Notes under the pieces: generated by a model | Seen by the model: the letters and a program-made list of their open reading frames with translations, nothing else | The model's database searches: none | Told to the model about the DNA's origin: nothing | From: Cohaesibacter haloalkalitolerans | GTDB taxonomy: Bacteria; Pseudomonadota; Alphaproteobacteria; Rhizobiales; Cohaesibacteraceae | Assembly: GCF_003574655.1 (NCBI RefSeq) | Contig: NZ_QNUM01000009.1 | Span: 62,001-126,000 of the forward strand | Length of the DNA: 64,000 nucleotides | Direction of reading: 5' to 3' | Made by a program: the position numbers and the translations under genes | Shown here: piece by piece, positions 22,789 to 33,048 of the stretch | How the letters are laid out: the number at the start of each line of letters is the position of its first letter | How positions within the stretch are numbered: position 1 is the stretch's first letter

Positions 22789-23553
22789 CTACAGCCGAAC
22801 GGACTGTGGGGTGACTATTTTCTTCTGGATGGCGATGGCCGTTGCCAGCAATCTGTTTGTCGCATCCAGTTTCTTGAAAATGTTGCTCCAGTGATAGCGC
22901 ACCGTGGGATGCTTGATCCCCAGTATCGTTGCGATTTCCCAATCCGATTTTCCCTCCGCCGCCCAGGCCAAGATATCCTTCTCCCTCTCTGTCATGCTCG
23001 GCGTGACAATGCTGGAATGCAGGCTCAGGAATTTGTCGTGAAACAGGGCTGCAGCCAGATAGATCGTACTGAGCACGTGGTAGTCATGATTGCGTTCAAC
23101 CCTCTCTCGTGAAATACCGAAGCCTGCAATCTCGCCATACCGGTTGATAAACGACATGCCGATGCCATCGGCGACACCGGCTTCGGCGCCCTGATCCATC
23201 ACCAGAGATGAGCGAGCCAACAGCGCGGGGTCGATATGCTGATCACGTTCAAGGCTTTCAACCGCATCCTTCCAGAAGAAGGGCACCGGGCGTTTCAAGG
23301 AATATATGCAAACCGGATCAACCTGCTGATAGCCCTGCTCGATATAGTAGCGTATCCAGTCGTCCGGATAATCGGTCGCGACGCCATGAAGGGCACGCTT
23401 GCCAATCGATGGATGATCAGTCAGCAGCGTGTAGACGGCATTGTCGTAACCAAGATCACCAAGATATGTCTTGAATGCCTCAAAGGCCGCATCGACGGTC
23501 GTTGCGCTTTGAATGCGTTGTATTGTTGTTTCAATACCAGTCATTGCCGACAT
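22789..23553 (-). CDS. LuxR-family regulator with autoinducer-binding domain (solo)
   Basis: 254 residues. The autoinducer domain at about 15-165 keeps the landmark residues of acyl-homoserine-lactone receptors: Trp and Tyr in DDWIRYYIEQGY, Asp-Pro in QVDPV, Trp in PFFW, and Gly near GIGMSF. The LuxR helix-turn-helix is at 185-245 (MTEREKDILAWAAEGKSDWE, then HPTVRYHWSNIFKKL). No AHL synthase is nearby, so this is an orphan receptor that could read its own species' signal or a foreign one. Confidence 0.92.
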   Translation of the reverse strand: MSAMTGIETTIQRIQSATTVDAAFEAFKTYLGDLGYDNAVYTLLTDHPSIGKRALHGVATDYPDDWIRYYIEQGYQQVDPVCIYSLKRPVPFFWKDAVESLERDQHIDPALLARSSLVMDQGAEAGVADGIGMSFINRYGEIAGFGISRERVERNHDYHVLSTIYLAAALFHDKFLSLHSSIVTPSMTEREKDILAWAAEGKSDWEIATILGIKHPTVRYHWSNIFKKLDATNRLLATAIAIQKKIVTPQSVRL

Positions 23554-23714: not shown

Positions 23715-24608
23715 CTATTTGGAGTGCTGTTTTATGATTTGCTTGACACGCTCGACGGCGTCGACGTTCTTTTTGCTGTTATGCCACAAGTCGGCAGTAA
23801 CTTTCTGATGCAGCTCGACAGATTCATGAGCTGACGTGATTGTGCCGACCCCTACCCGGATATTGGCGTAGAGCCCAAGCCGGAACGGGCTGACGGCGAC
23901 AACAGAACTTGGGCCGTTCTTCAATATCTGAAAACTGGCCCCGGGCAAGGAATCCTCGACCAGCCCGATTTGCACGCCCATCGGCTGGTCCGTCATCAGG
24001 CGCAAGATATTCTCGGCCTCGATCATTGCGGCTTCCTTGCGCTCTGCGACGATGTCTTCCGACAGGCCGTAGCGCCCTACGAGCCCGGTCAACAGCATCT
24101 GCTCCAGCTCGGCGGCAGACACCAGACTGACAATGTTCGGCCTGCGATACTGATAGGCCGATTTCCGCTCATAGAGGATCTTCAGGATCTGTTCGATTTC
24201 CTTGTCGAGGCTTTGCTGATTCGGTGCGGCCTCTGGCACACTTTCATGGAGAAGCTGCTTGAGGAGCCTGTCAAAGTTGTCCGTGGTGAGCAGGAAAGCA
24301 ACCGGGCCGAACAAGGCTGTGATCTGGTCTGCTACAGCCTCGATCTGTCGCATCCTTTCGAAAAAGTCTTTTGCAGAGGCAATGAATTCGGAACCGACAC
24401 CAAACAGGGATGCAATTGAAACGTCGAAGAAATCGGCAATCTTGCCCAGAGCGTCGACCCGGATCGGGTTGCCTGCCTCGTAGCGATAGATTGCGGCTCG
24501 CGAGATCCCGGTGGCTGTGGCAACTTCTTCTGGCGTCAGGCCTTTGCCGACGCGCACCAATCTCAAGCGATCCCCTATATCGAGAGCCGTTTCGTACTGC
24601 TTTGCCAT
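23715..24608 (-). CDS. XRE-family regulator of the adjacent ABC/pyrimidine genes
   Basis: 297 residues from ATG 24608; the frame continues upstream without coding signals. Helix-turn-helix at about 12-70 (LTPEEVATATGISRAAIYRY followed by DALGKIADFFDVSIASLFG). The C-terminal 220 residues form an unrecognised, probably ligand-sensing domain. Divergent from the ABC operon that starts at 24925. A perfect palindrome lies in that operon's promoter and again before the pyrK-pyrD operon at 33020, making this protein the obvious candidate to bind both. Effector unknown, perhaps a pyrimidine. Confidence 0.82.
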   Translation of the reverse strand: MAKQYETALDIGDRLRLVRVGKGLTPEEVATATGISRAAIYRYEAGNPIRVDALGKIADFFDVSIASLFGVGSEFIASAKDFFERMRQIEAVADQITALFGPVAFLLTTDNFDRLLKQLLHESVPEAAPNQQSLDKEIEQILKILYERKSAYQYRRPNIVSLVSAAELEQMLLTGLVGRYGLSEDIVAERKEAAMIEAENILRLMTDQPMGVQIGLVEDSLPGASFQILKNGPSSVVAVSPFRLGLYANIRVGVGTITSAHESVELHQKVTADLWHNSKKNVDAVERVKQIIKQHSK

Positions 24609-24924
24609 CTGGTCTTTCTTTCTTGCTGATTTTTCTGAAATAGTCTCAGCCTGACGTATTTGCAAGCTGAAGATGCCAAAAGTCCTCCGCTCGCGGTTTA
24701 TTGTAGGGTGAAAGCTATCTTCGAGAAACAACCCTAACACGCATTATAAATCTGCACAAAATTTCGCATAAATCCAGATGTTTTGACAGTAATTCTCAAT
24801 ATTGAGAATATTCTTGACATGGAGAATGGATCATGGAAAACATGGCCAAAGTGGCAAGACCTCTCTAGCAAGGTGCCTTCCAACTCAAAACAGTCGCACC
24901 CAGAACGAACGCGGGAGAACTGCA
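24609..24924. other. Divergent regulatory region between XRE gene and ABC operon
   Basis: Contains the operator-promoter described at 24783-24811 and about 105 bases of leader before the TTG start of the ATPase gene. No gene is supported in it. Confidence 0.6.
24783..24811 (+). promoter_or_regulatory. Promoter with 18-base palindromic operator
   Basis: TTGACA (24783-24788), a 17-base spacer and GAATAT (24806-24811). The perfect palindrome ATTCTCAATATTGAGAAT (24792-24809) fills the spacer and overlaps the -10, which is typical of repression. A second TTGACA at 24814-24819 is an alternative -35. The same arms, ATTCTCA-N4-TGAGAAT, recur at 33020-33037. Confidence 0.75.
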
Positions 24925-25671
24925 TTGATTAAAATTGAAAAGCTCAGCAAGACATATGGGCAGGGTGACGGTCAGGTTGTGGCGTTGGAACCACTGGACC
25001 AGACGATCAATGAAGGTGAGTTTGTCTCCATCATCGGCCCTTCCGGCTGTGGCAAATCAACCCTTCTGCGCTTGATTGCCAATCTGGAAGCGCCAACCTC
25101 CGGGCGCGTTACGCTCGAAACTGCCGGCTTGAAACGTCCTGTTGGTTTTGTCTTTCAGGATGCGGTTCTGCTGCCATGGAAATCTGTCGCTGATAACATC
25201 CGTTTCCCGCTCGATACCAGTGGTGTTCCGCGCAAGCTGGCCGACGAGAAGGTCAAGGAACTGGTCGAACTGGTTGGCCTCAAGGGGTTCGAGAAGTCCC
25301 TGCCCAAGCAGTTGTCCGGCGGCATGCGCCAGCGCGCTGCCATTGCCCGCGCTTTGGCCGATGATCCCCCCATCCTGTTGATGGATGAGCCCTTCTCCGC
25401 TGTTGATCTGTTGACGCGAGAAACGCTCAACGATGAACTGAGCCGGATTTGGCAAAAGACCGGCAAGACCATTCTGCTTGTGACCCACTCCGTCGAAGAG
25501 GCCGCCTATCTCGGCAGTCGCGTGATGGTGATGAGCCCGCGCCCAGGCAGGCTCAAGGTAACTTATGAAGTCGATCTTCCTCTGCCGCGCGGTGAATGCA
25601 CGAAGCGGGATCCGAAATTCCTCGACCTTGTCTCAGAGCTGAGGACGCTCATGCGGGAGATGACCTCATGA
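24925..25671 (+). CDS. ABC transporter ATP-binding protein (SsuB/TauB type)
   Basis: 248 residues from TTG 24925, chosen because GGGAGAA lies 5-8 bases upstream and the family begins here (IKIEKLSKTYG). The frame to 24802 would run through the operator. Walker A GPSGCGKST, Q-loop VFQDAVLLPW, signature LSGGMRQR, Walker B ILLMDEPF, and the switch His in VTHSVEEA. Energises the two permeases at 25668 and 28242. Of the nitrate/taurine/aminopyrimidine class that pairs with NMT1-like binding proteins. Its stop overlaps the next start (ATGA). Confidence 0.92.
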   Translation: MIKIEKLSKTYGQGDGQVVALEPLDQTINEGEFVSIIGPSGCGKSTLLRLIANLEAPTSGRVTLETAGLKRPVGFVFQDAVLLPWKSVADNIRFPLDTSGVPRKLADEKVKELVELVGLKGFEKSLPKQLSGGMRQRAAIARALADDPPILLMDEPFSAVDLLTRETLNDELSRIWQKTGKTILLVTHSVEEAAYLGSRVMVMSPRPGRLKVTYEVDLPLPRGECTKRDPKFLDLVSELRTLMREMTS

Positions 25672-26435
25672 AGGGGCGCATCAAACCCGTACTTGAGTAT
25701 AGCGGTGCCCTTCTGGTTCTGGTTGCTGCGTGGTGGTATGTCAGCGGTCCGATGGGTATGCCCGCCTATCTGTTGCCTTCCCCGGCGTCGGTTGGCTCGC
25801 TGCTGTGGGACATGATCCTCAGTGGCAAGCTGTGGCCCCATCTGGCCTTTACGGTTCAGAATATCCTGATTGGTCTGATTGTCGGGACGGTCTTTGGTGT
25901 CCTGCTGGCCTACATGTTTTTCAAGACTCCATCCCTCAGTGATTATCTGGAAGGCCCGCTGGTGGTCATTCAGACTGCCCCGAAGATCGCGATCGCTCCG
26001 CTGATCATCATCTGGTTCGGGCTGGGGCTCACCGCAAAGATAGTGCTGATCTTCAGCCTTGTCTTCTTTCCAGTTTTCGCCGGGGCGCTTGCCGGGTTCC
26101 GATCCATCGACAGCCGTCTGCATGACCTTGCGCTGCTGATGAACCTGTCCCGTACCCAACGCTTTTTGCGCATTGATTTGCCAGCCGCCCTTCCCGGCAT
26201 TTTTGTCGGCATCAAGATCGGGGCCATTCAGGCGCTGGTTGGTGCCATTCTGGCCGAATGGATGTCCGGGTCTGACGGGCTTGGTTATCTGATGACATTT
26301 GCAACCGCCACCTACAAAACCCCTTTGCTCTTTGGCGCGGTCCTGATGACTGCGTTCCTTGGGCTCGCCATGCACGCGATTTTGAACGAAATCGAAGCGC
26401 GTTATCTCGCCTGGAGCACGCCTGATGAGCAGTAA
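25668..26435 (+). CDS. ABC transporter permease (first of two)
   Basis: 255 residues from ATG 25668, overlapping the ATPase stop by four bases. About six membrane segments, with the binding-protein-dependent permease (EAA) loop around FRSIDSRLHDLALLMNLS followed by FLRIDLPAALPGIFVGIK. Resembles SsuC/TauC permeases. The operon has a second related permease at 28242, so the channel may be a heterodimer. The 3' end overlaps the phosphorylase start by 11 bases. Confidence 0.92.
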   Translation: MKGRIKPVLEYSGALLVLVAAWWYVSGPMGMPAYLLPSPASVGSLLWDMILSGKLWPHLAFTVQNILIGLIVGTVFGVLLAYMFFKTPSLSDYLEGPLVVIQTAPKIAIAPLIIIWFGLGLTAKIVLIFSLVFFPVFAGALAGFRSIDSRLHDLALLMNLSRTQRFLRIDLPAALPGIFVGIKIGAIQALVGAILAEWMSGSDGLGYLMTFATATYKTPLLFGAVLMTAFLGLAMHAILNEIEARYLAWSTPDEQ

Positions 26436-27240
26436 GTCAACCCCGACCGCCGAACATCCATTTACCAATGGACGTCCGCCCCATTTGCCCTGTGGTCCCG
26501 GGGATGTCTATCCCGATGTGCTTCTACCCGGCGACCCGGATCGTGTGGCCCTGCTGGCGGATCAACTGGATGATGTTCAGGATTTTGGCCGCAAGCGCGA
26601 GTTTGCGGTAATTTCGGGTAAATATCGCGGCCATCCGCTGACCATATGTTCCACCGGCATCGGCGGGTCGTCAACCGAGATTGCCCTTATCGAGCTGTCA
26701 TTGCTCGGCGCCAAACGGGTCATCCGCGTTGGTGGCATGTCGTCTCTCGTCAAGGAAATCCCGACCGGCTCCTTCCTCTGCGTCGACAAGGCAACCGGCT
26801 ATTCTTCCGTGGCGCGGCTCTATTCCGGTGGTGAGGATGGGCTGGCGCTTGCCGACCCGGATCTGCATGAGGCCCTGATGACCACTGAACTTGGCGACGA
26901 TACACGGATCTATTCCGGCATGGTCGGCAGCACAGACAGTTACTATTTCGGTCAGGACCGCTCAGTGGCGACATCCACCGCCAAGCTTCCCACGTTCAGC
27001 TATCTCAAGGAGCTGCAGGCGCAGGGAGCCGTCGGTGTCGATATGGAATGCCAGACGGTGCTGTCTGTTGCCGCCAGCCTCGGGCTCAAGGGCGCCTGCC
27101 TTCTGGGCGTTCACGGCAATCGGGCAACCAATGACTGGCTCGTTGATTACGAACCCACGCAACGCAAACTTCTCGACATAGCTGGCACCGCGTTGGCCAG
27201 AACTTCCGACTATCACCAAACCGCAAAGGAAAAACAATAA
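26425..27240 (+). CDS. Uridine phosphorylase-like nucleoside phosphorylase
   Basis: 271 residues. PNP/UDP family motifs are GDPDRV, CSTGIGGSSTEIALIELS (phosphate/ribose loop), GSTDSYYFGQDR and the ribose-binding Glu in VDMECQTV. The Gln and Arg in YFGQDR match the Q-x-R pair that recognises uracil in E. coli Udp (GQERYD), which favours a pyrimidine nucleoside. It would split uridine into uracil and ribose-1-phosphate. It is embedded between a permease and the binding-protein gene with overlaps at both ends, so transport and phosphorolysis are co-regulated. Confidence 0.88.
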   Translation: MSSKSTPTAEHPFTNGRPPHLPCGPGDVYPDVLLPGDPDRVALLADQLDDVQDFGRKREFAVISGKYRGHPLTICSTGIGGSSTEIALIELSLLGAKRVIRVGGMSSLVKEIPTGSFLCVDKATGYSSVARLYSGGEDGLALADPDLHEALMTTELGDDTRIYSGMVGSTDSYYFGQDRSVATSTAKLPTFSYLKELQAQGAVGVDMECQTVLSVAASLGLKGACLLGVHGNRATNDWLVDYEPTQRKLLDIAGTALARTSDYHQTAKEKQ

Positions 27241-28235
27241 TGTCTTTCACCATCAGAGGACTTGCAGCAACCCTTGCTCTGGTTGCCACATCCATCTTCA
27301 CCACGGGCGCTTCTGCCGAGGACAAGGTCGTTCTGCAGATCGACGGTAACGTTGTACCATTCTATGCACCGCTCTATGCTGGCGTTGAAAACGGCTTCTT
27401 CGCAGATCAGGGTATCGAAGTTGAATTTCTCTATGGCGGCGCATCCGACATTCTGACCAACATCGCTGCCGGCAACGTTGATTTCGGCTTCCCCAACGGC
27501 GACGCTGTCGTGGCCGCTGCTTCCAATGGCCTGCCGGTCAAGGTTGTTCACACCACCTATCAGCGCGGCATCGGTGCCCTGCTTACCAAAAGCTCGAGCG
27601 GTATCGAGACTTACGCTGATCTGAAAGGCAAGACTGTTGCCGTTACCTCTCTGGGCAGCCCGAACTATCTGCAGCTGCAGGTCGGCCTTGCCAAAGCTGG
27701 CCTTACCCTCGATGACGTCAAGGTTGAAGTGGTTTCTTCCGGTGCGATTGTCCAGACGCTGCAGTCTGACGATGTCGACGCCATCATCTTCTCCGAGCTG
27801 CGCAAATATGCTCTGGAAGCCAATGGTTTCGAAGTCAACATGATCCTGTCCAACGACTTCCTGCCGTCCTTTGGCAACGTGCTCGTCACCAGCGCGAAGT
27901 TGCTGGCTGACAATCCCGATCTGGTCAAGCGCATGACCAACGCTGTTACAGCATCCTATGCATGGGTCATTGATGGCCACATCGATGATGCGCTGCAGAT
28001 TTCCATGGACAAATACACTCCGACCTGGACCGACCAGAAGGCCATGCTGTCGACGGCATTCGAAAAGACCTTCGTTGCTTCCGTATGGCAGAGCGCTCTG
28101 ACCAAGGAAAAGGGCCTCGGCGCAGCTGACCTAGACGCATGGCAGAAGAACATTGATATTCTGACCGAGTACAAAGTCATCTCCGGTGGTGCGAAAGCCG
28201 CTGACTTTGTTGTCGATCCTTCCGATATCAAGTAG
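27240..28235 (+). CDS. NMT1/THI5-like periplasmic substrate-binding protein
   Basis: 331 residues. Signal peptide about 1-26 (LAATLALVATSIFTTGASAE). The mature part shows the NMT1/SsuA-type fold: VVPFYAPLYAGVENGFF, EFLYGGASDILTNIAAGNVD and KGKTVAVTSLGSPNYL. Family members bind thiamine-precursor pyrimidines, nucleobases, sulfonates or nitrate. The uridine phosphorylase next door favours a pyrimidine here. ATG overlaps the preceding TAA by one base. Confidence 0.9.
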   Translation: MSFTIRGLAATLALVATSIFTTGASAEDKVVLQIDGNVVPFYAPLYAGVENGFFADQGIEVEFLYGGASDILTNIAAGNVDFGFPNGDAVVAAASNGLPVKVVHTTYQRGIGALLTKSSSGIETYADLKGKTVAVTSLGSPNYLQLQVGLAKAGLTLDDVKVEVVSSGAIVQTLQSDDVDAIIFSELRKYALEANGFEVNMILSNDFLPSFGNVLVTSAKLLADNPDLVKRMTNAVTASYAWVIDGHIDDALQISMDKYTPTWTDQKAMLSTAFEKTFVASVWQSALTKEKGLGAADLDAWQKNIDILTEYKVISGGAKAADFVVDPSDIK

Positions 28236-28241
28236 TCGATC

Positions 28242-28979
28242 ATGTTCTTGAAAGCCATCATAGGCCTCGTTGGAATCGCCGTGCTTTGGGGCGTGGCGGT
28301 TCCGATTTTCGATGTGCCACACTATCTGCTTCCCGGTCCCATTGAGGTGGCTGAGCGGATCATCTTCCTGTTTCAAAGGGGTGATCTGGCGTGGCACATC
28401 TATGTGACGCTTTCGGAAGTCTTTGGCGGGTTCATTCTGGGTGCCGTCGTCGGTATCGCAGCCGCGTTGGTGTTCTCGCGCTTTCCCATTGTCGAGCGGG
28501 TGTTGACGCCGCTCATCCTGCTGCTACAGACCATTCCCAAGATCGCAATTGCACCACTCCTGCTGTTATGGCTTGGCCTTGGTGCTTCGCCCAAAGTTGC
28601 GCTTGTGGCCGTCGTCACCTTCTTTCCCGTCATGACCGCGATGCTCTCGGGCATTCGTTACATGAACAAATCCTATTCAGACCTATCCGTTGTTCTGAGA
28701 CTGTCCCCATGGCAGCGTTTCTGGCACATCGAATTGCCAGCCGCCATTCCGACGCTCTTCGCCGGAGCAACCGTCGCCACCACGCTGGCGATGACAGCAG
28801 CCGTCATTGGCGAGTTGATGGGCGCAAACAAGGGCATGGGATTTGTTCTGGCAACCGGTCAGGAAAATGCCGACACCGCCACGGTGATGGGCATGGTCAT
28901 TCTGTTGTCCTTCGTCGGCTGGGCGCTGTTCGCCATCCTCGATTATGGCCGCCGACGGGTTGAGGATCGTTTTCTCTAG
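28242..28979 (+). CDS. ABC transporter permease (second of two)
   Basis: 245 residues, six predicted spans. Permease loop around LSGIRYMNKSYSDLSVVLRL followed by FWHIELPAAIPTLFAG. Similar in length and layout to the permease at 25668 but divergent in sequence. Six bases after the binding-protein stop, so it is the last gene of the five-gene operon. A weak hairpin follows at 29046. Confidence 0.92.
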   Translation: MFLKAIIGLVGIAVLWGVAVPIFDVPHYLLPGPIEVAERIIFLFQRGDLAWHIYVTLSEVFGGFILGAVVGIAAALVFSRFPIVERVLTPLILLLQTIPKIAIAPLLLLWLGLGASPKVALVAVVTFFPVMTAMLSGIRYMNKSYSDLSVVLRLSPWQRFWHIELPAAIPTLFAGATVATTLAMTAAVIGELMGANKGMGFVLATGQENADTATVMGMVILLSFVGWALFAILDYGRRRVEDRFL

Positions 28980-29045
28980 GCGATCCTGAAAGGCTTGCCT
29001 AACGTGGCGGGCCTGGCCTTGGCGAAGGTTGCAAGGCGCTGTTGA

Positions 29046-29070
29046 GGCGATCCTTGGCAAGGGGATCGCC
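29046..29070. terminator. Possible terminator between convergent operons
   Basis: GGCGATCC (29046-29053) pairs with GGATCGCC (29063-29070). No strong T-run follows, so this is tentative. Confidence 0.35.
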
Positions 29071-29113
29071 TTCCAGCCACCAAACGGCTCCGGGAAGAGA
29101 CGTTATCTGTTGA

Positions 29114-29434
29114 TCAGGAAATCTGCGGAACGATGTCTTTGGCGACACTGTTGAGTGCTGCCACCTGTTCCTCGGCTGTACCGGAACCAAAGGCTTCACC
29201 AAGCAGTTTGGCGTAGTTTTCGATACGGTCAAACTGGTCCTTGGCAACAGCACTGCTTAGGGGTTCCCGGTCGAACTTGTCAGCAAAATCCTGTGCGATG
29301 ATGCCGAACAGGAAGTAGCATACGGCATGGTCGGGGTTTGACACGGCCCTTTCGCGGGCGACGCTGGCACATTTCTTGTAGGCGCTGACGCCCTTGCTTC
29401 CTTCGATAAGGATGTCGAGTAGTTCTTTGAACAT
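29114..29434 (-). CDS. Hypothetical protein at end of pyrimidine operon
   Basis: 106 residues from ATG 29434, preceded by GGAAAGGC. All-helical, soluble, no signal peptide (FKELLDILIEGSKGVSAYKK at the start). Two Cys lie in the first half. No family recognised. 124 bases after the amidase gene on the same strand, so it may be the last gene of the pyrK-pyrD-amidase operon. Function unknown. Confidence 0.55.
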   Translation of the reverse strand: MFKELLDILIEGSKGVSAYKKCASVARERAVSNPDHAVCYFLFGIIAQDFADKFDREPLSSAVAKDQFDRIENYAKLLGEAFGSGTAEEQVAALNSVAKDIVPQIS

Positions 29435-29558
29435 TGTTTTGCCTTTCCGTATGTGTGGCTCTAGGGTGCGGTTTGTTGAGTATTGAGAGACCTTGCGGCC
29501 ATTGATGCAGGGCGGGCCCTGCACTGCGGGGACGTAATCAGGAGACTTTGGCTGTTCT

Positions 29559-30851
29559 TCAACTCTTTGCCTCCATGAGATAGGTGTAGATGATCTCCGT
29601 TGCGATCATGAAATCCGGGATGTCCATGGCTTCGGCGGGGTTGTGAGAGCCGTTGCGGTTCCTGACGAAAATCATGGCCGTCGGCACGCCGGCATTGGCG
29701 AAAACGGCGGCATCATGGCCTGCGCCCGAAGCCATCACAAATGGCTCCAGACCGATGGTTTCCATGGCGGTTTTCATCCCCTCGACAATTGCCGGGTCAC
29801 TGAGTGCTGGCGCGGTAAGCAGAGTGTCGTCCAGTTCGAAACTTACTCTGCGCTCGCGCTCGATCGTCCGCATTTCCTGCGCCAGCAGCTCCTGCATGGC
29901 CTTAAGCACATGAGAACTCTGGCTGCGAATGTCGAGGCTGAAATCCACCCAGTCGGGTATGCGAGACAGGGCGTGGCGTTCAACGTCGGTTGAGACAATG
30001 CCACTTGTCAGGACCAGATCGTCGCCCTTCTGAAGGATGGTCAGCCAGCTTTCATCAAGGCGGGTCAGAAGGTCGGCCAGTGCCAGAACCGGGTCTCGGC
30101 GAAAGGCCCGGGGCACTGCACCGGAATGCCCGGCCTCACCAACGCAGCGGATCTTCTGATGGCGGAAATTGCCGCGAATGCCGGAAACTACAGCGGCTGG
30201 CATGTCCTTTTGTACCAGCAACGGGCCTTGCTCGATGTGAAGCTCGATATAGGCGCGCACAGAGTTGATATCGAGCAGCGGCTTGCCATTCCGAACCGGA
30301 GCCATGTCGATCCCGACGGCTTCCATGTGTTCGTCGAGCGTTTTCCTGTCGCCCTTGTGACGGGCTCGCAGTTCCTCTGGCGTCAGACGACCAAGCAATG
30401 CCTTTGAGGCGATGTAGCACGGTCCGAACCAGGCACTTTCCTCGCCGCGCATGGCCAGAACTTTTACCGGCTGGGCGAAACGCTCCCCCTCGTCCTGCGC
30501 CCGAACAAGACACATCAGGCCGGAGATGACACCGGCCAGCCCGTCAAAGTTTCCGCCTTGTGGGACTGTGTCGACGTGGGAGCCGATGATCACGAAGGCC
30601 TCGGCGTTTGTGTCGCATGGTAGTGTAAAGACGGCGTTCTGGCCTGCATCATAGGAAACATCAAGGCCATGGCTCTCGGCAAAATCCGCCAGATGAGCCA
30701 GCGTGCGTGTTTCCAGTGCCGAGAAGGCTGGTCGGCTGATGCCCTGCACATCCGCTGAAAAGGCTGCTATTTCGTCAAACAGATGTGACGCAATGGCCTG
30801 ATAGTCGGTGCGGGTGTTGCTTGGTGTCATGGACAGGGACAATGCGGTCAT
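29559..30851 (-). CDS. M20 Zn-dependent amidase/carbamoylase (hydantoinase partner family)
   Basis: 430 residues (an internal Met at residue 8 is also possible). Metal-site motifs are GSHVDTVPQGGNFDG, GEESAWFGP, HIEQGP and GAGHDAA, with RNRNGSHNPAEAM near the end: the allantoate amidohydrolase/beta-ureidopropionase/N-carbamoyl-amino-acid hydrolase group. It removes the carbamoyl group from an N-carbamoyl amino acid, giving ammonia and CO2. Its start overlaps the pyrD-like stop (ATGA), so the substrate is likely made downstream of that reductase: N-carbamoyl-beta-alanine or N-carbamoyl-aspartate. Paralogue of the protein at 54418. Confidence 0.88.
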   Translation of the reverse strand: MTALSLSMTPSNTRTDYQAIASHLFDEIAAFSADVQGISRPAFSALETRTLAHLADFAESHGLDVSYDAGQNAVFTLPCDTNAEAFVIIGSHVDTVPQGGNFDGLAGVISGLMCLVRAQDEGERFAQPVKVLAMRGEESAWFGPCYIASKALLGRLTPEELRARHKGDRKTLDEHMEAVGIDMAPVRNGKPLLDINSVRAYIELHIEQGPLLVQKDMPAAVVSGIRGNFRHQKIRCVGEAGHSGAVPRAFRRDPVLALADLLTRLDESWLTILQKGDDLVLTSGIVSTDVERHALSRIPDWVDFSLDIRSQSSHVLKAMQELLAQEMRTIERERRVSFELDDTLLTAPALSDPAIVEGMKTAMETIGLEPFVMASGAGHDAAVFANAGVPTAMIFVRNRNGSHNPAEAMDIPDFMIATEIIYTYLMEAKS

Positions 30852-31792
30852 TGTGCAGCCTCCAGAAATACGATGCCGTCCGAGGCTTCCTCGTCGCGGA
30901 TCGAGCCTGTGAGGTCCGAAACACTGGCAAGGCCCTGGCTTTCGACATAGGCCGCAAGGTCACGAATGATCTGCACCATGGCAGTCGGGCGGATAAAGGT
31001 TGCGGTTCCGACCTGAACCGCAGATGCTCCAGCGATGAGATATTCAATGACGTCCTCGACCGTCGAAATGCCGCCACAGCCGATGATCGGGATATCGACG
31101 GCCTTTGCGCACTGGTAGGTCATGCGAAGGGTGATGGGTTTTAGGCCGGGGCCGGAAAGGCCTCCCATCAGATTGCCGAGCTTCGGTTTGCGGGAGCGGA
31201 TATCGATGGCCATCGACAGAAGCGTATTGGCGACGACAAGGGCGTCAGCCCCTGCCCCTTCCGCAGCGAGCGCGACCTCGGTCGTCTCGCCAGTGTTCGG
31301 TGACAGCTTGGCCCATAGCGGCAGATCCGTAGCAGACCTGAGCTTTCTCATGACCTCTTCGGTGGTTGACGGGCGCATGGCGAAGGCCTTGCCATCGGCC
31401 TCAATGTTGGGGCACGAGATGTTGACCTCTATGGCGGCGACACCCGGAACGCTGACGTCTTCGCACAGGCGGGCAAACTCGTCGGCACTGCCCGCCGAGA
31501 TGCTTACGACCAGCGGGGTGTCATACTGGTTATAAAAGGGAATGACTTCGGATTTGAAATAGTCGACGCCCTTGCTCGGAATGCCGATCGAATTCAACAT
31601 CGATCCCCGTACCTCGCAGACACGGGGCGTTGGATTGCCTCCACGAATGTCGCGCGTGATCGTCTTGGTCACATGTGCTCCTAGCACACCGATGTCGAAA
31701 ATCTTTGCCAGATCTTCCGAGAAGGTTCCGGAGGCCGGCATGATCGGGTTTTCGAGCCGCAAAGAACCGACGGTTACCGAAAGATTTGTCAT
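30848..31792 (-). CDS. Dihydroorotate dehydrogenase class 1B-like protein
   Basis: 314 residues, an FMN-binding TIM barrel. LRLENPIMPASGTFSEDLAK and EVNISCPNIE with the class 1 catalytic Cys are present, with phosphate loops IIGCGGIST and GASAVQVGTATF. The substrate loop reads LNSIGIPSKGVDYF, where PyrD-1B enzymes usually have NAIGLQNPG, so specificity may differ. Stop and start overlap both neighbours, with the PyrK-like subunit upstream and the amidase downstream. Catabolic reduction of orotate or uracil is suggested by context; biosynthetic PyrD is an alternative. Confidence 0.85.
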   Translation of the reverse strand: MTNLSVTVGSLRLENPIMPASGTFSEDLAKIFDIGVLGAHVTKTITRDIRGGNPTPRVCEVRGSMLNSIGIPSKGVDYFKSEVIPFYNQYDTPLVVSISAGSADEFARLCEDVSVPGVAAIEVNISCPNIEADGKAFAMRPSTTEEVMRKLRSATDLPLWAKLSPNTGETTEVALAAEGAGADALVVANTLLSMAIDIRSRKPKLGNLMGGLSGPGLKPITLRMTYQCAKAVDIPIIGCGGISTVEDVIEYLIAGASAVQVGTATFIRPTAMVQIIRDLAAYVESQGLASVSDLTGSIRDEEASDGIVFLEAAQ

Positions 31793-32604
31793 GCGATGGC
31801 CTCCTGAAGATCGAATACCGGGCCTTCCTTGCAGACCCGCTCATTGACAATTCCGCCGTTGCGGCGGAACGACCGGACGCAGCATTGACACATGCCAACG
31901 CCACAGGCCATCTGTTGCTCAAGGGCAATCTGGCCGGGGATGTCGTATCGGGCGCACATGGACTGCAACAGATGAAGGATCCGGCTGGAGCCACAGGTAT
32001 AGAAGGCGTCTACACCCACGTTTGTGATTTGCTGCTCGATCAGACGTTCAAGATTTTGTACGCTGGATGTGCCTTCGCTGTCCGTGACGGGGATGACCTT
32101 CGCGCCGAGCTCACGGAAATGATCGATCGACATCAGCACCTCGGGCGATCTGGCGCTGCAAATGGCGGTCAGTTTGCGCCCCAACTGTTGGGCTTTCAAG
32201 GCAAGTGGCGCCAGTGTAGCCAGCCCGACGCCACGAGCAACAACCATCAAGTTCTGCCAGTCATCCCGAATTTCAAAACCATGCCCAAGCGGGCCGACAA
32301 CATTCAGGTTTTCACCCGGCTCCAGAGACGCAAGGGCGGCAGTGCCCTCGCCAGCGATCTTGTAGAGGAAATGCAGCTCACCGGCGTCCGGATAGTATCC
32401 ATAGATGCTCATTGGGCGGCGAAAATAGGGATTCAGGTCGCCCTTGGACGGGCAGAGCAAATGAAAGAACTGCCCCGGCTCGCAATCGAGGATTCGCGCG
32501 GGAGCATCGAGTACCATCAGCTGGTATTCGCGATTGATCGCCATGTTGCTTTTGACAACACAGGATGTCTCGTAAATGCGCTTGAATCCAATATCGATGG
32601 TCAT
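31789..32604 (-). CDS. PyrK-like iron-sulfur flavoprotein (electron transfer subunit)
   Basis: 271 residues. N-terminal FAD-binding barrel (PYFRRPMSIYGY), NAD-binding middle, and a C-terminal [2Fe-2S] site with Cys spacing 4-2-n in MACGVGMCQCC and a last Cys in ERVCKEGPVF, as in PyrK. It passes electrons between NAD(H) and the FMN of the PyrD-like partner, with which it overlaps by four bases. First gene of the leftward operon; AGAGAG precedes the ATG. The leader is long, with an operator at 33020 and a hairpin at 32635. Confidence 0.88.
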   Translation of the reverse strand: MTIDIGFKRIYETSCVVKSNMAINREYQLMVLDAPARILDCEPGQFFHLLCPSKGDLNPYFRRPMSIYGYYPDAGELHFLYKIAGEGTAALASLEPGENLNVVGPLGHGFEIRDDWQNLMVVARGVGLATLAPLALKAQQLGRKLTAICSARSPEVLMSIDHFRELGAKVIPVTDSEGTSSVQNLERLIEQQITNVGVDAFYTCGSSRILHLLQSMCARYDIPGQIALEQQMACGVGMCQCCVRSFRRNGGIVNERVCKEGPVFDLQEAIA

Positions 32605-32634
32605 TTTTCTCTCTGAAATAGAAAACGGGTCTCA

Positions 32635-32664
32635 CTTCGCTTCAAATCCGGGTTTGAAACGAAG
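32635..32664 (-). promoter_or_regulatory. Leader hairpin upstream of pyrK-like gene
   Basis: CTTCGCTTCAAA (32635-32646) and TTTGAAACGAAG (32653-32664) pair at 11 of 12 positions around a 6-base loop. It ends about 30 bases before the start codon. No T-run follows, so it is a possible regulatory or stabilising structure, not a plain terminator. Confidence 0.45.
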
Positions 32665-33019
32665 AAAGCTGACAATGGGGACATGTTTTGAATGGGATGA
32701 TCGGCAGACGATCAGAAACGGAGAGCCAGGCACCATCGGCGCTCGCTCGCTCGATGCAGGTGCAAGCGAGATGGACAGGTCAATGCGATGCGGTCAGCCT
32801 TGCGGCGGACCATGGATGGAAGCATGGAAAGAGAGGAAGCAAGCATCAGGCTCTGTTTCTGGATCGATTTGATACACCAGATCCGCACAGTCTGCACTGT
32901 ATGCGTCGGATGCCCGGCGCCGCGACAAAAGCTCGAAAAGGGAAGAGTCATCTCTTGTTCCTAGTTCCAGTATTGCTAAGGTGAGAGCTTACCCCTCAAA
33001 ATCGGGACCGGTCAAGACA

Positions 33020-33048
33020 ATTCTCATATTTGAGAATTTTTTATCCAA
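33020..33048 (-). promoter_or_regulatory. Operator-promoter of the pyrK-pyrD-amidase operon
   Basis: ATTCTCATATTTGAGAAT (33020-33037) has the same 7-base arms and 4-base centre as the operator at 24792. On the minus strand a candidate -35, TTGGAT (33048-33043), lies 17 bases from GAGAAT (33025-33020), so the palindrome again fills the spacer. It points toward pyrK. The -10 and -35 matches are modest. Confidence 0.65.

Follow-up and report, generated by a model that had tools for sequence, protein, structure and literature searches.

A probable XRE-controlled regulon of two convergent operons for orotate-type pyrimidine use in Cohaesibacter haloalkalitolerans

The window analysed here, 64,000 nucleotides of Cohaesibacter haloalkalitolerans (assembly GCF_003574655.1, contig NZ_QNUM01000009.1, positions 62,001 to 126,000 of the forward strand), carries a gene for an XRE-family regulator and two convergent operons. 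One operon encodes an ABC transporter together with a uridine-phosphorylase-like enzyme, the other a PyrDK-type dihydroorotate dehydrogenase together with an M20-family amidase, and each is preceded by a perfect copy of the palindrome ATTCTCA-N4-TGAGAAT. Judged by comparative sequence analysis, the locus probably represents an XRE-controlled two-operon regulon for orotate-type pyrimidine use.

Two convergent operons and their operators

The XRE gene (23715..24605, minus strand, with its start set at the ATG common to relatives) is divergent from the ABC operon on the plus strand. This operon encodes an ATPase (24925..25671, PF00005), permease A (25668..26435, PF00528), a nucleoside phosphorylase resembling uridine phosphorylase (26425..27240, PF01048), which we propose as a candidate orotidine phosphorylase, an NMT1/ThiY-type substrate-binding protein (27240..28235, PF09084, 8.2e-38) and permease B (28242..28979, PF00528). 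The relatives of the substrate-binding protein in the PDB include the pyrimidine-binding 3ix1 (E=5.6e-9). On the minus strand, the pyrK operon comprises the electron-transfer subunit PyrK (31789..32604), the class 1B dihydroorotate dehydrogenase catalytic subunit PyrD (30848..31792), an M20 hydantoinase/carbamoylase-family amidase (29559..30851), proposed here as an N-carbamoyl-L-aspartate hydrolase, and a helical protein of 106 amino acids encoded by the last gene (29114..29434). This layout bears out the convergent orientation claimed in a first-pass annotation of the sequence.

PyrD exceeded the cut-offs of TIGR01037 (316.5 bits versus 270) and NF005574 (346 versus 269), and its catalytic Cys127 was found in the window and in all 51 locus sequences aligned with it (open reading frames of plausible length only). 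PyrK carries the 2Fe-2S domain PF10418 above cut-off, while its matches to four PyrK equivalog models stayed below their cut-offs. The amidase passed TIGR01879 (267 bits versus 204). No Pfam or NCBIfam family was found for the window copy of the 106-amino-acid protein, which has homologues in 47 of the 66 related loci described below, and its fold did not identify it either: the predicted model (predicted local distance difference test, pLDDT, 96.1) had no PDB match at E≤0.001.

The perfect copies of the palindrome, which has no strand, lie at 24792..24809 (operator A, ATTCTCAATATTGAGAAT) and 33020..33037 (operator B, ATTCTCATATTTGAGAAT). Every further match in the window departs from the pattern at three positions, and the total of five matches at up to three mismatches compares with 3.1 expected from shuffles. 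The whole assembly (5,014,206 bases in 24 contigs) contains two perfect copies, standing before the ABC and pyrK operons, a single one-mismatch copy and ten two-mismatch copies, against one match at up to two mismatches for the reversed pattern. On these counts we rejected a scattered repeat or chance. Thus, the statement that the window holds no other full copy can be extended to the entire genome, and a scatter of many copies, which had been named as the finding that would speak against the proposal, was not seen in a scan of 5.01 Mb. We also considered the imperfect copies as further members of the regulon and rejected those inspected: the one-mismatch copy (C18:583239) falls within rplC (TIGR03625, 284 bits versus a cut-off of 142.9), and three of the ten two-mismatch copies (C11:12933, C17:400286 and C20:83827) each overlap a long open reading frame.

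In all six Cohaesibacter genomes that possess the XRE, operator A is perfect, and in both operons the palindrome core is followed by five bases and then by TTGACA or TTGACC. The palindrome is therefore placed just upstream of the predicted -35 element, which in the window is TTGACA at 24814..24819 (plus strand) for the ABC operon and TTGACC at 33010..33015 (minus strand) for the pyrK operon, a spacing that recurs across loci. The corresponding -10 elements, read by eye, are weak (AAACAT at 24838-24843 and TAAGCT at 32986-32991). The first-pass annotation had put the palindrome into the spacer between -35 and -10. Such a spacer does formally exist around operator A, formed by another TTGACA at 24783 and AATATT 18 nucleotides later, but it is not conserved, since this TTGACA is kept in only two of the six aligned genomes. 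With the site upstream of -35 and the -10 weak, activation appears somewhat likelier, although a repressor would also be compatible. A leader of about 375 nucleotides separates the predicted -10 from pyrK (32604-32985) and has a like length in all six genomes; a riboswitch within it was rejected, as no Rfam match was obtained at E≤0.5.

Gene content of related loci and the pyrimidine involved

To place the window among its relatives, we scanned a genome collection with an XRE alignment seeded by the peptide patterns RAAIYRYE and A[KV][EDS]FFERM. This yielded 67 loci, 66 of them usable for gene-content counts after a weak partial match (L199) had been set aside; owing to the two seed patterns the sample is biased, with the SRAAIYRYE class over-represented. 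The 66 loci belong mostly to Rhizobiales and Rhodobacterales, with some from Thalassospira and two from metagenome-assembled genomes named as Desulfovibrio relatives. The latter, named Pseudodesulfovibrio and Desulfovibrio (L154, L176), carry a set of TRAP, M20, PyrC, PyrE and XRE genes, by transfer or by a binning error. M20 was present in 61 loci and PyrDK in 60, all three genes occurring together in 60 of the 66. PyrE was found in 41 loci and PyrC in 24. A TRAP transporter was frequent, with DctP in 50 loci and the full DctPQM set in 48, while L155 and L163 had an unlinked DctM only. The ABC operon with its phosphorylase occurred in 19 loci, five of which hold both transport systems (L133, L169, L189, L196 and L198). 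The usual order, divergent from the XRE gene, is DctP-DctQ-DctM-PyrK-PyrD-M20-(PyrC)-PyrE-106-amino-acid protein. In the representative locus L157, PyrC (TIGR00856, 429 versus 293), PyrE (NF001729, 380 versus 245), DctP and DctM each scored above a curated cut-off.

PyrC and PyrE handle dihydroorotate and orotate. Their presence in homologous operons therefore makes it likely that PyrDK acts on orotate or dihydroorotate too, and we regard an orotate/dihydroorotate route as the likely function of the enzymes. Most likely, then, the regulon serves the use of orotate or dihydroorotate, and perhaps orotidine, and not that of uracil. This agrees with the dedicated pyrimidine-use system of the first-pass annotation; its leaning towards uridine or uracil is not supported, given PyrC and PyrE in homologous operons and the dehydrogenase and phosphorylase searches that follow.

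In the uridine/uracil alternative, the transporter would import uridine, the phosphorylase would free uracil, PyrDK would be a dihydrouracil dehydrogenase, and M20 together with a dihydropyrimidinase elsewhere would finish the reductive pathway. We searched 18 genomes having this XRE with PF01180 (L141 was left out here and in the PyrE search) and found a match in the class 2 PyrD band in all 18, in the band of the cluster enzyme in 17 and in the PreA band in 14. For two genes the band was compared with a model: the class 2 PyrD of the window genome, G000, scored 360 versus 200 with TIGR01036, and the PreA of G018 scored 717 versus 335 with its own model. PyrDK as the sole dihydroorotate dehydrogenase of the window genome was thereby rejected. 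Since class 2 PyrD and PreA-band genes stand elsewhere, the class 1B enzyme would be neither the biosynthetic nor the uracil enzyme. The NSIGIPSKG loop of the cluster PyrDs points the same way, as it matches dihydroorotate dehydrogenases and not PreA (each position kept in 49-51 of 51 sequences, with S at the second position in 44). The window genome itself has no PreA or PydA by a whole-genome PF01180 search, in which only the class 2 and cluster PyrDs matched. Despite this, it has a Pyd-type cluster (L129, C20:174000-193000) in which genes for a TetR regulator, a PydC-like M20, a dihydropyrimidinase and an ABC ATPase lie together. A cluster of this kind lacking a PreA-band gene favours the uracil alternative, but it also shows that a separate M20 already stands beside the dihydropyrimidinase. 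Furthermore, a distinct, ordinary pyrimidine-nucleoside phosphorylase is encoded elsewhere in all 11 genomes searched. We consider uridine/uracil catabolism unlikely.

The amidase and the phosphorylase are informative about substrates. Aligned with the two PydC-type M20s of G000 and G018, named by their context next to a dihydropyrimidinase, the cluster M20s differ at 31 conserved columns, including Arg135, 226, 297 and 397 (57 rows including three references, open reading frames of plausible length only). From these extra conserved arginines we infer that the M20 substrate may have a second carboxylate, as N-carbamoyl-L-aspartate does. The phosphorylase reached only 122.8 bits with the uridine phosphorylase model TIGR01718 (cut-off 280.3). 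All 20 phosphorylases compared, those of the 19 loci and of the window, read GxHGNRAT where solved uridine phosphorylases read GVIxNRT, a stretch whose residues, including Ile-Val, presumably line the base pocket. On the orotate reading, the 'uridine phosphorylase' is plausibly an orotidine phosphorylase. We propose orotidine because it is one nucleoside whose import could serve the two arms of the regulon alike, yet we put its chances slightly below even. A phosphopentomutase is encoded elsewhere in the window genome.

Several observations weigh against the orotate route. The phosphorylase keeps the base motif GQxR (as GQDR) of uridine phosphorylases, whose Gln-x-Arg we take to be the uracil-recognising residues, and this favours the uracil alternative. 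The PyrE of L157 falls just under the TIGR00336 cut-off (101.5 versus 106.8). The cluster of the window genome is without PyrC and PyrE, the former being absent from the window operons though present in 24 of the relatives, so that for this genome the orotate route is deduced from its relatives. In favour of the route, a housekeeping dihydroorotase was found in all 13 genomes examined, with the G000 copy on C18, and the chain from orotate to aspartate could therefore close there without an operon copy. Finally, the PyrE of the TRAP operons would fit salvage too, in which PyrD and PyrE turn imported orotate or dihydroorotate into uridine monophosphate while M20 merely clears N-carbamoyl-aspartate. 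PyrE is present in 41 of the 66 loci, and among the 12 searched genomes having a cluster PyrE it is the sole copy of at least 100 bits in four, a second copy existing in eight, which means that salvage may be mixed in. But M20 is as constant as PyrDK, PyrE is missing in loci with the ABC operon only, the window genome included, and orotate salvage needs neither an NADH-linked PyrDK nor an amidase. We therefore rate salvage as the main function even lower than uracil catabolism.

The XRE regulator and its sites

The XRE protein has an N-terminal helix-turn-helix of the Cro/C1 type (HTH_3, 1.7e-11, above the gathering score), which is all that Pfam recognises; the C-terminal domain has no Pfam match. 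A predicted model (pLDDT 84.7, predicted template modelling score 0.73) comprises these two parts, and the best Foldseek matches of the C-terminal domain, all weak (query TM 0.29-0.38 for the first nine), were phospholipase-D-like proteins and TrmBL2. We take this domain as a putative sensor. A gene for a LuxR-type regulator with an autoinducer-binding domain (22789-23553) adjoins the XRE gene in the window and also in G011; the sequence retrieved around the XRE gene in the other four Cohaesibacter relatives showed none.

When palindromes were enumerated upstream of 71 XRE genes, TCTCAA-N2-TTGAGA and TTCTCA-N4-TGAGAA came out on top, being two views of one site. TTCTCA-N4-TGAGAA was found exactly upstream of 13 genes, with up to one mismatch upstream of 39 and with up to two upstream of 54; ten block shuffles gave 0, 0 and 0-4 for these three classes. 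The presence of the site followed the recognition stretch of the XRE: it accompanied 48 of 50 proteins with SRAAIYRYE versus 6 of 38 with other stretches (L134, with too short an upstream region, was left out), which agrees with the XRE as binder. Over all loci, sites with up to two mismatches stood upstream of 37/50 TRAP, 20/24 pyrK-first and 22/25 ABC operons (11/84 in a coding-sequence control). TTGAC followed at exactly +5 in 57 of these 79 sites (TRAP 28, pyrK-first 20, ABC 9) and at any other offset at most twice per operon class; Rhizobium-type ABC operons mostly have the site but no TTGAC at +5. The consensus of 55 sites, 51 of them distinct, is TCTCAtttTTGAGAAt.tTCTTGACa, in which TTGAC is at 100% by selection. 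L145, the same genome as L065, was removed from this consensus and is counted in the XRE-upstream, gene-content and spacing tallies.

Among 20 genomes of the family, six have a close XRE orthologue (G000, G004, G009, G011, G016 and G017). All six have a perfect palindrome beside the XRE gene, and a class 1B PyrD-band match occurs in exactly these six. At the pyrK operon, four of them encode a second XRE of about 53% identity, flanked on each side by a palindrome with one mismatch, and in the same four a phosphopentomutase gene closes the ABC operon. These four relatives also have a gene for a PfkB-family kinase beyond the first XRE gene, joined in L063 by one for a GntR-family regulator (L063 922-1872, 2478-3227); these neighbours are perhaps concerned with ribose handling. 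The first XRE gene of G009 (L066 3770-4660) is in three pieces, whereas the second XRE gene and both sites are retained.

A second sample of 385 alphaproteobacterial genomes gave matches in 14, including G000, and contributed 17 loci (all but one of the 18 places outside G000, the exception being a partial match in G342), one of which repeats L197. Their XREs share 40-55% identity with the nearer of the query XREs, and 12 of the 17 are linked to PyrD, PyrK, M20, PyrC or PyrE. For the XRE as common regulator, the adverse findings are these: in five of the 17 loci, the sequence retrieved shows no pyrimidine gene in linkage; the palindrome, at up to two mismatches, is missing in 16 of the 17, L202 alone having it; shared descent by itself could also make the site follow the recognition stretch; and G003, G005 and G007, which belong to the 14 family members lacking a close XRE, have one perfect palindrome each, within open reading frames of 239, 103 and 92 amino acids, none followed by TTGAC at +5. 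As nearly all loci of the second sample are without the palindrome, the operator would be limited to one XRE clade; the gene partnership reaches wider than this operator. That a different protein binds the palindrome, the XRE being an unrelated neighbour, would fit the XREs that keep the gene linkage without the site and the copies in genomes without a close XRE, but is very improbable beside a site that tracks the recognition stretch, phylogeny as a confounder notwithstanding, and a second XRE set between two extra sites in four Cohaesibacter genomes.

Comparison shows just two operators in the genome, co-occurrence of operator and XRE, a fixed distance to -35 and gene linkage. Control of the regulon by the XRE is well supported by comparison, and we hold it very likely that this protein acts at both palindromes. 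The first-pass annotation had called the XRE the obvious binder and the two operons one regulon; the co-occurrence and recognition-stretch data favour the former prediction, and the two operators and the linked genes the latter. We infer binding, sign of regulation, inducer and substrates from sequence. In the proposed XRE-controlled orotate regulon, the XRE would bind the palindrome abutting the -35 element of both operons and switch them when it senses a pyrimidine acid. PyrDK would convert orotate to dihydroorotate with NADH, and a dihydroorotase, the operon PyrC in some relatives and the housekeeping enzyme here, would open the ring to give N-carbamoyl-L-aspartate, from which the M20 amidase would release aspartate, ammonia and CO2. 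A nucleoside would be taken up by way of the ABC operon and split by its phosphorylase into base and ribose-1-phosphate; if this nucleoside feeds the same route, it would be orotidine.

Comparison with known systems

The enzyme steps are known chemistry. In a non-exhaustive literature search, chiefly of titles and abstracts and including PMC10041152 and PMC2996986, we found no description of this combination of enzymes, regulator and operator geometry, nor of such an operon or an orotidine phosphorylase, which does not prove their absence. More tentatively than orotidine as the nucleoside itself, we suggest that the ABC operon could be a complete module for orotidine uptake and phosphorolysis with a new activity, joined by an XRE with a phospholipase-D-like sensor to an aerobic orotate-to-aspartate route in Rhizobiales, Rhodobacterales and Thalassospira. 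We know of orotate breakdown solely from old work on an anaerobe. If our reading is true, genes, transporters and a regulator can be assigned to this process in aerobic bacteria, and likely misannotations (biosynthetic PyrDK, uridine phosphorylase, allantoate amidohydrolase) can be corrected in many genomes. Should the nucleoside be orotidine, its phosphorolysis would be a new activity, and marine and soil habitats would have a nutrient link that has gone unnoticed. With operator and promoter in fixed geometry, the regulator lends itself to testing and to use as a sensor of orotate or orotidine.

Clostridium oroticum degrades orotate through an NAD-linked dihydroorotate dehydrogenase, a dihydroorotase and an N-carbamoyl-aspartate hydrolase, and the same enzyme series fits the present loci. 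Here, however, the hosts are alphaproteobacteria and the set includes a TRAP or ABC importer, an XRE and often PyrE, the ABC form adding a nucleoside phosphorylase. A further system with an ABC transporter and an M20 amidase (L129, L132) is the reductive degradation of pyrimidines (PreTA/PydB/PydC, TetR regulator), but it uses PreTA in place of PyrDK, another type of M20 and TetR in place of the XRE, and it has no uridine-phosphorylase-like enzyme, PyrC or PyrE. The cluster phosphorylase belongs to the same family as uridine phosphorylase of the Escherichia coli type and shares its GQxR motif; unlike that enzyme it lies far under the family cut-off, has His-Gly for Ile-Val in 20 of 20 sequences and is linked to orotate genes. 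Regulators of the TrmB type carry a phospholipase-D-like effector domain, which the C-terminal domain of the XRE resembles in its weak matches to phospholipase-D-like proteins and TrmBL2. In contrast to them, the XRE has a helix-turn-helix of its own family instead of a winged helix, and its C-terminal domain falls into no sequence family.

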